From Achromobacter seleniivolatilans (GTDB lineage Bacteria > Pseudomonadota > Gammaproteobacteria > Burkholderiales > Burkholderiaceae_B): DNA of 64,000 bases. Location of the stretch: positions 3,596,001 through 3,660,000 of the forward strand of contig NZ_CP132976.1 in NCBI RefSeq assembly GCF_030864005.1, read 5' to 3'. Numbering within the stretch: position 1 is the first letter of the stretch; each line of letters begins with the position of its first letter. Both the position numbers and the translations under genes were made by a program. Of this stretch, positions 32,469-34,538 are shown piece after piece. The notes under the pieces are model-generated. The model searched no databases. It saw nothing but the letters and a program-made list of their open reading frames with translations, and was not told where the DNA came from.

Positions 32469-34004
32469 ATGTCCAGTTTGATCGAAGCCATCCACCGCGC
32501 CGACGACGGCCACGAGCACGCGCAAATGCTCTCCTTGTGCGAACAAGGCGTCCGCGAGCAACCCGGATCAGCAGTCATGTGGGCGTTACGTGCCCGCTAT
32601 CACGACAAGCGCAGCGCTCACGCGCAGCGCGACGCCGACCTGGCGCGGTCTTTGACGCTGGACCCGCAGTGCAGCGATGCCCTGCGCGTGCGCGCCACGG
32701 CGCTCTACGATGCAGGCGAACAGCAGGAGGCCTGGAGCCTCTTGCGTGAAGCCCGGCAGCGGGCGCCTTCGCACTACGGCTTGATGATGTCCGAGGCGTA
32801 CCTGCTGATCAACGATCGCCGATTAGAGGACGCTATCGACTGCTGGACCCGCGCATCGAACCTGCGCCCGTCCGCTGCCGCGCCGCACTGCTATATCGGC
32901 TCAAACCTGCATAACGCAGGCCGCTACCAGGACGCGTTGCCCTACCACCAGCGCGCCGTTGCGCTGGCGCCCAACAATGGCGGCTTCCTGTACGACGCCG
33001 GCAACAATTACCGGCGCCTGGGCGATCTGAAAAACGCCATCGCCATGTTCGACCGCGCCCGCGTCATTCTTGGCGAAGAAAACGCCATCCAGCACAACCG
33101 TGCCTCGTGTCTGCAAGCGCTGGAACGGCATGAGGATGCCGTGGAAGAATGGACGAGCCTGCTGCGCCGCGAACCCGATTGGGATTGGCCATTGGAAGGC
33201 AAGGCGCGGTCCCTGCACCGCTTGGGCCGCGCGGACGAAGCCGCGCCGCTGTGGCGCCATCTGGACGCCTTGTCGGATTCGGGTTGGGAAGGCCGCAAGG
33301 AACAAGCCCGCGAATATGTCCGCAGCCGCGACCCCGAATTGGCCGAACAGGCCTTGCTGGGCCTGGACCCCATGGAATGCGGCGATGCGCAATTGCTGTT
33401 CGTGGCGGGGAACGCGCAGCGCGACCAAAGCAACTGGGAAGGGGCGCTTGCCTATTATCTTTGCGGTTATGAACTCGCCCCCGACAGTGATTTTCTGCCG
33501 GGCAACGCTGCCGACATGCTGACCCGCCTGGATCGTTACGACGAAGCCCTGCCGCTGTCGGAAGTCGCGATTTCTCTGGACCCCGACTGGCTGAAGTGGC
33601 GCCGCGTGCGCATCGATGCGCTGACCCATCTGGGCCGTGCCGCAGAGGCAGTAAGCGACGCCGACCGAGCGTTGGAAACTTGGCCGGACAGCGGCCCCTT
33701 GCATGCCGAGCGCATCAACGCCCTGATCGGCGCCAAGCGCCTGGAAGAAGCGCTTGCCGCGTGCGACCGACTGATCGGGCTTGACCCGGACTACCGCAGC
33801 TGGGCCCTGTTTTCACGCGGCGAGATCTACGGACAAATGAAGCGACACGCAGAGTCGGCCATGGCTTTCCGCCAAGCGGCCGCTTCTTATCAGCAGAACG
33901 GCCGCGCCAACTATCAAGACCTGTCCTTACGCAACGCTCAAGCGGCAGAAGAAGCCGCCGCCGCGCCGCGCGGATTTCTTGGCCGCTTGTTCGGCCGCAA
34001 ATAG
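32469..34004 (+). CDS. Tetratricopeptide repeat protein
   Basis: The 511-residue soluble protein consists almost wholly of TPR-type helical pairs. Repeats with the pattern A-x-x-LDP or EAL-x-x-x are visible at about 55-90, 100-190, 200-260, 330-390 and 400-480. No signal peptide or membrane helix is seen. TPR proteins are protein-binding scaffolds, and no enzyme domain is present. The C-terminus ends in a Gly/Phe/Arg motif (GFLGRLFGRK) that recalls membrane-targeting tails of helical proteins. It probably works with the RDD/pilin-like protein encoded just upstream. Confidence 0.85.
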   Translation: MSSLIEAIHRADDGHEHAQMLSLCEQGVREQPGSAVMWALRARYHDKRSAHAQRDADLARSLTLDPQCSDALRVRATALYDAGEQQEAWSLLREARQRAPSHYGLMMSEAYLLINDRRLEDAIDCWTRASNLRPSAAAPHCYIGSNLHNAGRYQDALPYHQRAVALAPNNGGFLYDAGNNYRRLGDLKNAIAMFDRARVILGEENAIQHNRASCLQALERHEDAVEEWTSLLRREPDWDWPLEGKARSLHRLGRADEAAPLWRHLDALSDSGWEGRKEQAREYVRSRDPELAEQALLGLDPMECGDAQLLFVAGNAQRDQSNWEGALAYYLCGYELAPDSDFLPGNAADMLTRLDRYDEALPLSEVAISLDPDWLKWRRVRIDALTHLGRAAEAVSDADRALETWPDSGPLHAERINALIGAKRLEEALAACDRLIGLDPDYRSWALFSRGEIYGQMKRHAESAMAFRQAAASYQQNGRANYQDLSLRNAQAAEEAAAAPRGFLGRLFGRK

Positions 34005-34055
34005 ACGCTCGGAATGGTATAGTCTCGCCCGCTGCCGGCCCAACGGGCCGCGCAC

Positions 34056-34366
34056 GCCCGAGTGGTGAAATTGGTAGACACAAGGGACTTAAACTAATTT
34101 GAGCCCTTTGGGGGAAACTCCAAAGGTGTAGCCCGTCAAACTCGGCGAACGCCCTGGACTTGTTCCGAGCCAACGCCGAGCCAAGCCCCAACTGAAAAGC
34201 GGGGGAAGGTGTAGAGAGCAGACGGCGGGCACCTAAGGCCACAAGGCTATGGTGAAGGCGTGCTCCAGACCACGAACAGCGCAACGCGCTGGCGGCGAAA
34301 GCCGAAGTGGTAAGAAAATCCCTCGGCCTCACGGTCGTACCGGTTCGATTCCGGTCTCGGGCACCA
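34056..34366 (+). tRNA. tRNA-Leu(TAA) interrupted by a group I intron
   Basis: The exons are 34056-34090 and 34315-34366. The joined 87-nt product has acceptor stem GCCCGAG/CTCGGGC, D-loop TTGGTAGAC, anticodon stem AGGGA/TCCCT with loop CTTAAAA (anticodon TAA), a long variable arm, a TTCGATT T-loop and an encoded CCA. The 224-nt insert splits the anticodon between U34 and A35. This is the same position as the group I intron in cyanobacterial and plastid tRNA-Leu(UAA). The gene is a single copy in this window. Confidence 0.95.
34091..34314 (+). ncRNA. Self-splicing group I intron (Azoarcus-type, probable subgroup IC3)
   Basis: The 224-nt element has no ORF. P1: exon GGGACUU (34084-34090) pairs with GAGCCC (34101-34106), leaving the splice-site U of 34090 in a U.G wobble with G34101. 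P2 (34107-34124) is capped by a GAAA tetraloop (34114-34117). P4: CUCGGCG (34141-34147) with CGCCGAG (34174-34180). P7: GAGCA (34216-34220) with UGCUC (34261-34265), which carries the guanosine site. P8: CACC/GGUG (34230-34254). P9: CCAC/GUGG (34270-34310) with sub-hairpins 34277-34291 and a GGC-GAAA-GCC. The last base is omega-G at 34314. Core strings such as CAACGCCGAGCCAAG and GAAGGTGTAGAGA match the Azoarcus tRNA-Ile intron as I remember it, while P7 differs by paired changes. Confidence 0.94.
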
Positions 34367-34538
34367 TTCCGCATAGCGCTTTCGCGCCCCTGCACGCGCT
34401 GACTACAGCGATTGCTTTCCACCCTAAGCACTCATACGCGCTGCGGCAGTTTTGTCTGCCGCCATGTCGCTCCCCCTATCCGATTAAGGGTATATCCCAG
34501 CAGCCACACAAGCGGCTTCGGTTTACCGTACTCACGTT

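Follow-up and report, generated by a model that had tools for sequence, protein, structure and literature searches.

Introduction

Group I introns in bacterial tRNA genes have so far been regarded mostly as benign elements. Two groups lie close to the intron described here. Those of cyanobacterial and plastid tRNA-Leu(UAA) genes have both the tRNA and the insertion site, CTT|AAAA, in common with it. The IC3 intron of Azoarcus tRNA-Ile(CAU) and its Ile2 relatives are likewise small and ORF-less, lie in the anticodon loop and have a similar P3-P8 core. However, the Ile2 introns sampled here split their genes at CTCAT|AA, in another host tRNA and at another position, and compared with the Azoarcus type the present intron has an extra hairpin, P9.1.

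Passages of the tRNAscan-SE 2.0 paper (PMC8450103) describe group I introns in the Ile2 genes of Acidovorax and Burkholderia, and note that the program was not built for finding such introns. Under-annotation of this kind is therefore already known.

A second set of described systems comprises the integrative elements that use tRNA genes as targets. Conventional elements integrate site-specifically in a tRNA gene and restore the half that they disrupt. For the Tn4371 family of ICEs, passages of two papers (PMC9960961, PMC6563109) give the att sequence of ICE-KKS102-4677 and ICEbphKF708 as 5'-GATTTTAAG-3'; one of the two places the sites of the family at the 3' ends of tRNA-Leu genes, and the word intron is absent from these passages of both. 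A literature search by title returned nothing on a link between split tRNA-Leu genes and integrative elements, the key papers lying beyond the reach of that search.

Here we analyse a 64,000-nt stretch of the genome of Achromobacter seleniivolatilans (the window), which contains a split tRNA-Leu(UAA) gene. We conclude, with a probability of about 0.9, that this is the sole and presumably essential tRNA-Leu(UAA) gene of the organism, that it is split by an ORF-less, IC3-like ribozyme, and that this ribozyme belongs to a clade shared with copies carried on integrative elements. The element link was not seen in an initial annotation made from the sequence alone, and was found among the relatives of the split tRNA.

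The split gene and its fold

With its intron option, ARAGORN calls a tRNA-Leu(taa) whose ends are exactly 34056 and 34366, interrupted by an intron of 224 nt at the junction gactt|aaaat, and draws a normal class II cloverleaf with an encoded CCA. The initial annotation had placed a 224-nt insert between U34 and A35, and its boundaries match this call to the base. It had also assigned the insert to the group I introns. The U.G pair of P1, the GAAA loop of L2, P3-P8 with a P7 of 5 bp, a P9 hairpin closed by GAAA, and omega-G all lie where they had been described (Table 1). The gene pnp lies close by. We take CCUAAG...UAUGG in P8 to be an 11-nt tetraloop-receptor-like motif. The GAAA loops of L2 and L9 together with this P8 are a likeness to the Azoarcus intron, which is of class IC3.

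Table 1 Features of the split tRNA-Leu(UAA) gene and its intron (positions in the window).
Feature	Position	Strand	Remarks
tRNA-Leu(UAA) gene	34056-34366	+	Split between U34 and A35; ARAGORN intron option
tRNA-Leu(UAA) 5' exon	34056..34090	+	3' end ...GGGACTT (U34)
Group I intron, IC3-like, ORF-less, 224 nt	34091..34314	+	Terminal base omega-G 34314
tRNA-Leu(UAA) 3' exon	34315..34366	+	AAAATCCC...CACCA; CCA encoded
P1	34088..34103	+	CUU|AAA with UUUGAG; U34.G at the 5' splice site
P2 with GAAA loop L2 (34114-34117)	34105..34126	+	
P3 (34132-34137 with 34224-34229), encloses P4, P5, P6	34132..34229	+	Both-side changes in 4/6 P3 pairs
P4 (within P3)	34142-34147 with 34174-34179	+	Both-side changes in 2/6 pairs
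P7, guanosine-site helix, GAGCA 34216-34220 with UGCUC 34261-34265	34216..34265	+	P3 pseudoknot; both-side changes in 3/5 pairs
P8 with CCUAAG...UAUGG, presumed 11-nt tetraloop-receptor-like	34230..34254	+	Exact motif in 8/76 relatives
P9 with hairpins P9.1 (34278-34290) and P9.2 (GAAA loop 34297-34300)	34270..34310	+	

The secondary structure was written from the window sequence and counted on an alignment of 76 tRNA-Leu introns. These are 78 cluster representatives from 137 tRNA-Leu-type loci, minus L105 and L111 (L and G numbers denote loci and genomes), in which the 'intron', about 410 nt long, takes in a native half as well as a split gene. The structure has 65 pairs and leaves out one P3 pair that is shared with P8. 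Standard pairs fill 93.6% of the 4810 pair cells; displacing the 3' partners by 1-3 columns (the slid structures) lowers this to 29.6-45.7%. Both partners change in 45 of the 65 proposed pairs. The covariation score is 0.414, as against 0.051-0.080 for the slid structures, and is reached by none of 500 shuffles. A chance structure is rejected on the basis of these pair changes and scores.

The covariation signal is carried by P2, P3, P8, P9.1, P9.2 and three pairs of P7, and P6 is invariant. The search motifs behind the named rows took in the splice sites and parts of P4, P6 and P7, and invariance there therefore says little; nor is omega-G in the 76 rows independent, as rows were chosen with it. 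The weakest helices are the outer part of P2 and the innermost pair of P1, which are paired in about 45-63% of cases in those columns. Loop L2 is GAAA in all 76 rows and the P9.2 loop in 70. Folding of the single sequence gives a z of -2.81, with one shuffle in 100 as good, and its MFE fold differs from the group I fold.

The pair at the 5' splice site is U-G in 64 rows and C-G in 12 rows, the latter from CAA genes. The tRNA-Leu(CAA) introns keep the guide GAG, so that C-G replaces U.G at the splice site; all 12 of the CAA rows have it, which makes them a natural exception to the wobble rule. The CAA loci concerned are L048, L051, L057, L061, L065-L066, L068-L083, L201 and L209.

Detection by standard tools

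In its default mode ARAGORN reports three other tRNAs in the window and misses the split gene, and Rfam at gathering thresholds leaves the intron unmatched. The initial annotation had expected that the gene would escape routine annotation, which is borne out by both programs. The check with RF00028 that it proposed fails if taken literally, since even at E<=10 a search of 33990-34420 returns no intron match, only a partial 16.2-bit match to tRNA and one chance match. On two plasmid relatives RF00028 scores just 36.8-36.9 bits against a cutoff of 50, so its silence on the window fits a limit of that model; the cutoff is a detector of group I introns and no defining trait of them.

Because RF00028 fails on this intron lineage, a family covariance model (R1) was built from 25 sequences, none of them from the window's genus, covering the P3-P8 region, the P7 strands and the start of P9. 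It gives a single match in the window, at 34123-34282 (151.5 bits, E 3.5e-42), and the next-best score in the whole genome is 16.4 bits.

The only tRNA-Leu(UAA) gene

The genome has 57 tRNAs above the Rfam cutoff. Typing of the 12 longer ones gives six Leu (GAG, CAA, UAG and three CAG), four Ser, one Tyr and one Met, and the remaining 45 matches span 71-74 nt and are therefore too short for Leu. A search of the whole genome for the intact-UAA pattern gives no match. The suggestion that this is the sole copy thus holds by both pattern and Rfam, and a second, intact gene that would make this one a dead copy is rejected on the same counts.

UUA codons are in use: of the 282 Leu codons in six CDS close by, 6 are UUA. 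Given a sole tRNA-Leu(UAA) gene and UUA codons that need reading, splicing should be essential, and the window intron is predicted, very probably, to splice. In the reaction envisaged, the pre-tRNA would fold the P1-P9 ribozyme, which would cleave after U34 using exogenous guanosine; the exons would then be ligated at omega-G and mature tRNA-Leu(UAA) released.

Relationship to known intron lineages

A tree of 86 chosen introns was built by a quick method with SH-aLRT support only, and 35 of its 83 inner branches fall below 80. The window intron lies in a clade of 32 tRNA-Leu(UAA) rows (SH-aLRT 96), made up of 8 introns from Achromobacter, 15 further resident UAA introns, 5 that have a cut native half next to a split UAA gene and 4 more from UAA genes. 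The introns of CAA genes are placed just outside, and together the two make a clade of 44 rows (99). The Achromobacter introns cluster weakly (81), with one other row, L050, among them.

Both known lineages form clades apart from that of the window: the cyanobacterial introns (99), whose rows pair differently at P3, P4 and P8, and the Azoarcus-type Ile2 introns (95). In the 86-intron tree the window intron is found in neither, and ARAGORN calls its host a tRNA-Leu and not an Ile2. The initial annotation equated the insertion site with that of cyanobacterial tRNA-Leu(UAA) introns, and four cyanobacterial introns indeed split at CTT|AAAA. It also saw a puzzle in a host gene and a core that point to different relatives. 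The similarities stand but the puzzle does not, as the proteobacterial tRNA-Leu clade (96) is separate from both. By this tree, the window intron is a member of that proteobacterial clade, distinct from the cyanobacterial and the Azoarcus-type introns.

Distribution

All 43 sampled Achromobacter genomes have the split gene, and the intact pattern is found in none of the 43. Base-by-base reading gave UAA in 33 of them; the remaining ten are full-length matches only, at 89-91% identity. Across the family, a full-length split gene of the window type occurs in 60 of 268 genomes, 43 in the genus and 17 in other genera, and all 17 of the latter read as UAA. The intact-UAA pattern occurs in 187 of the 268. 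It matches three of the 60 genomes with a split gene: G112 and G122, where the match is a cut 5' half only, and G233, whose intact gene is genuine although the genome is a MAG with 7% contamination. Twenty genomes have a related intron in tRNA-Leu(CAA) (22 loci), and four of these genomes also have a split UAA gene.

Two further observations concern the family. In genus g31 (G188-G198) the intact tRNA-Leu(UAA) pattern is found in none of 11 genomes, and one of these, G190, has a divergent split tRNA-Leu(UAA) by eye (L090), so that a second genus may be fixed for an intron. In G034 one contig of 6.4 Mb has identical split copies (L010 and L091) near both of its ends, perhaps because an overlap in the assembly was left untrimmed.

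Beyond the family, the pattern scan of named genomes covers at least 118 stretches and is a sample. Host tRNAs were typed with ARAGORN and an omega-G rule, the latter because the ARAGORN intron mode misplaces some splice sites (for example in L004); 15 of 201 sequences gave no intron-bearing tRNA. Among the matches listed, a core of the window type is found in tRNA-Leu(UAA), Leu(CAA), Ile2(CAU), Arg(CCU), Thr(UGU), Thr(GGU) and probably Lys(UUU), and the family loci add Ser(UGA). The hosts, again among the matches listed, are Alpha-, Beta- and Gammaproteobacteria, Acidobacteriota, one Bacteroidota, Actinomycetes and Cyanobacteria. Introns with this core at the same tRNA-Leu(UAA) site are found in many Proteobacteria and in some other phyla.

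The intron core is also matched by 1282 plasmid records, mostly from Enterobacteriaceae, two of which were read. On both pCTX-M3 (L007, at 1390-1690) and L004 the split tRNA-Leu(UAA) is unannotated and its segment also holds DUF3883 and hypothetical genes; on pCTX-M3 an AAA ATPase gene and aac(3)-IId come next. The plasmid intron is nearest to an element copy from Enterovirga, L179 (SH-aLRT 95). A related intron is present in an apparent tRNA-Lys(UUU) of the Gordonia phage Daredevil (L214, at 1040-1370), near annotated integrase and HNH genes, and split tRNA-Lys genes are also found in Microbacterium (L140) and Tsukamurella (L141).

Tn4371-type elements carrying a split tRNA-Leu

In two genomes, G122 and G112, a Tn4371-type ICE of 45-51 kb lies in CTTAAAATC, in the anticodon loop of the host tRNA-Leu(UAA), and cuts the resident gene. 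At the left end the native tRNA-Leu(UAA) ends ...GACTTAAAATC and is followed by 160-162 conserved nucleotides and then by a complete split tRNA-Leu(UAA). The right end, a long way downstream on this contig, reads ...CATGCTCTGG CTTAAAATC and continues as the native 3' half that matches. The two ends are 51,291 and 44,785 bp apart, and when the flanks are joined in silico ARAGORN calls an intact tRNA-Leu(UAA) in both genomes. A tyrosine recombinase gene starts within 0.2 kb of the right end. Both genomes therefore show an att core at either end, a native tRNA that is cut, an integrase at one end and a complete split tRNA-Leu inside. In G122, Trb-like ORFs come next at the left end (by eye); in the same place, the Hydrogenophaga locus L119 has TrbI, CagX, VirB8 and TrbL by Pfam. 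The same left end recurs, within other native tRNAs, at L119 and at L106 (Lysobacterales), and the genome of L119 has a matching right end with the same type of integrase.

Read on the opposite strand, the published att sequence of the Tn4371 family, GATTTTAAG, becomes CTTAAAATC, which forms the core at either end of the elements in G122 and G112, and the tyrosine integrase and the Trb-type genes of L119 are further points of resemblance. The crossover lies in the anticodon loop, whereas one of the papers cited above places the sites of the family at tRNA-Leu 3' ends. Unlike conventional elements, these ICEs leave the cut gene unrestored and supply a whole split copy from inside the element. 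The window gene lies outside any ICE.

Of the 268 family genomes, 47 have relatives of the integrase (E<=1e-90), and ten of these 47 belong to the genus. The outer flanks of 31 distinct integrase loci were compared. Four end in a tRNA-Leu 3' half, two in UAA genes (G122, G112) and two in CAA genes (L278, L285), and the other 27 end in A-rich sequence like GTGAAAYRAAAAA (L280 partly), as expected of the published Tn4371 site TTTTTCAT. The CAA elements have the same layout as the UAA ones: in L225, L229 and L230 the native tRNA-Leu(CAA) 5' half is cut after CTCAAAA and followed by about 190 nt of element and a split tRNA-Leu(CAA).

Two incomplete or compound arrangements were also seen. On Cupriavidus megaplasmids (L005 and L006) a left end like that of the ICEs occurs with a split tRNA-Leu(UAA) of which the 5' part is present, the break lying inside the intron. 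L224 (G204) has a split tRNA-Leu(CAA) with a resident-looking promoter and an ICE-type terminator, and 5 kb further along there is another element end, again with a split tRNA-Leu(CAA); these are possibly tandem insertions.

Cut genes beside other integrases

Among the matches listed, 63 split tRNA-Leu loci are recognised by regular expression. A cut native UAA 5' half lies within 5 kb upstream on the same strand in 12 of these and is absent from 51, partly because contigs or the 8-kb stretches end there. A thirteenth cut half, at L208, falls outside this count since its split tRNA fails the regular expression. The half pattern gave 17 hits in at least 118 named loci, of which L183 and L191 resemble the 5' exons of the split tRNAs themselves, L163 resembles an intact CAA gene and L103 was left unassigned.

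An integrase-like protein of about 430 aa is encoded between the cut half and the split gene in L096, L114, L115, L157, L205 and L208; of three that were scanned, L114 alone passes the Pfam cutoff. An integrase-like ORF lies at the 3'-half end of L105, L179 and L165, with Pfam integrase domains in those of L105 and L165. The native 3' half was sought in 13 genomes. Nine have a match and four have none, and in eight of the nine it is a 3' half without its 5' half; inspected by eye, the acceptor strands of the halves pair without a mismatch in seven of these eight and with one mismatch in L115. The ninth genome (L157) is flagged intact by the intact/cut rule used here, yet the D-arm side is not tRNA-like, as also noted for L294 on its left D-arm side. 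In L105 the halves are 34.6 kb apart, taking G270:C1 as that chromosome. The same rule mislabels L310 and L313 as cut, both being intact by eye; the ARAGORN intron-only mode used there cannot confirm intact genes.

One locus, L308 (G487), has a tRNA-Leu(UAA) cut after CTTAAAA and an unsplit copy 1.66 kb away that shares its 5' flank (by eye). This looks like conventional restoration at the same site and speaks against a strict rule that the copy supplied is split.

Discussion

The att core, CTTAAAA or CTTAAAATC, reaches across the anticodon loop, and the intron sits at CTT|AAAATC. The intron therefore interrupts the att core, and a split gene has no core while its spliced RNA is a normal tRNA. 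In G122 and G112 the ICE has recombined into CTTAAAATC in the anticodon loop of tRNA-Leu(UAA), cutting the resident gene, and supplies a complete, intron-split tRNA-Leu(UAA) in replacement. With the intron inside the same core, the replacement should be a poor target for the integrase of the element, and the intron may thus shield the replacement tRNA. On this proposal, no recombination with the split gene is expected.

A wider hypothesis, which we put forward tentatively and at somewhat less than even odds, is that split tRNA-Leu genes are portable replacement tRNAs: elements that destroy a single-copy tRNA-Leu by recombining in its anticodon loop would carry an att-split copy of it, which would function once spliced but be immune to attack, and loss of the element would leave residents such as those of Achromobacter. 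The association with elements is established for the relatives, and is inferred for the history of the window's copy.

How the window's copy arose can be approached from its surroundings and its exons. Neither att halves nor remnant tRNA halves were found in the window, its genome has no close integrase relative (E<=1e-90), and no ICE-type terminator follows the gene; with neither cut native halves nor an integrase nearby, the window does not look like the carrier of a Tn4371-type ICE. Its exons have 2 differences from the intact gene of G121, in another genus, and 5-9 from element-borne exons, so that a recent replacement of the whole gene is not supported. In G078 (intact) and G089 (split), from one genus of the family and one locus, the promoter-side and the distal sequence match while the whole tRNA body differs; the terminator after the split gene resembles that after the ICE-borne gene. 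This pattern fits a native gene that gave way to an element-borne copy, with the element lost later. Several relatives have intact and split genes near pnp, as in the window.

These observations bear on four other readings. That the gene is dead, its intron unspliced and tRNA-Leu(UAA) made by another gene, might be argued from the silence of RF00028 and from splicing being itself a prediction, but a 100%-complete assembly without another UAA gene, exons and intron core conserved over 43 congeners, pairing maintained by covariation and the use of UUA codons make it highly improbable. Scarcely more credible is a direct transfer of the intron into the host from cyanobacteria or from the tRNA-Ile(CAU) (Azoarcus-type) lineage. 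The identical cyanobacterial insertion site and a core similar to that of Ile2 introns are in its favour, but both groups are supported clades (99 and 95) outside the proteobacterial tRNA-Leu introns. It is possible, with odds like those of our own wider hypothesis, that the intron is a plain resident, one that passes vertically within the genus and moves between genomes when tRNA genes recombine in the ordinary way, its carriage by ICEs being incidental and without a protective role. The window without an element, its native-looking exons, the clustering, though weak, of the Achromobacter introns with L050, and the 51 of 63 named loci (among the matches listed) without a cut half would all agree with this. 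Harder to reconcile with it are the recurrence of element-borne split copies with different integrases and in two isoacceptors, and the match between the carried tRNA and the tRNA that was cut.

Rather less likely is that the window's copy is a decayed element: after a Tn4371-like ICE had cut the native gene, its function would have passed to the split tRNA, and everything else would have disappeared. The G078/G089 pair, with shared flanks, different tRNA bodies and the ICE-like terminator after the split gene, suggests that such events may happen; the position near pnp, as for the intact and split genes of relatives, and the presence of resident and element-borne introns in one clade are consistent with it. 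Against it are the lack of a half-tRNA remnant and of an ICE-type terminator in the window, and exons that look native. An old replacement, a transfer of the intron into the native gene, and descent with loss elsewhere are each possible origins of the window's copy.

Taken alone, the window's copy is an intron of a known type, and the new part is the element link in its relatives. Genomes such as those of Achromobacter may seem in standard annotation to be without tRNA-Leu(UAA), yet depend on a ribozyme for it. The finding of relatives as cargo near the ends of elements that cut the very site interrupted by the intron gives these introns a testable role, as part of a replacement tRNA with a broken att core, and offers a route of spread that needs no homing endonuclease. 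If the hypothesis of portable replacement tRNAs is true, integrase targeting would explain the position of the introns in anticodon loops, their spread without homing endonucleases, and their patchiness.
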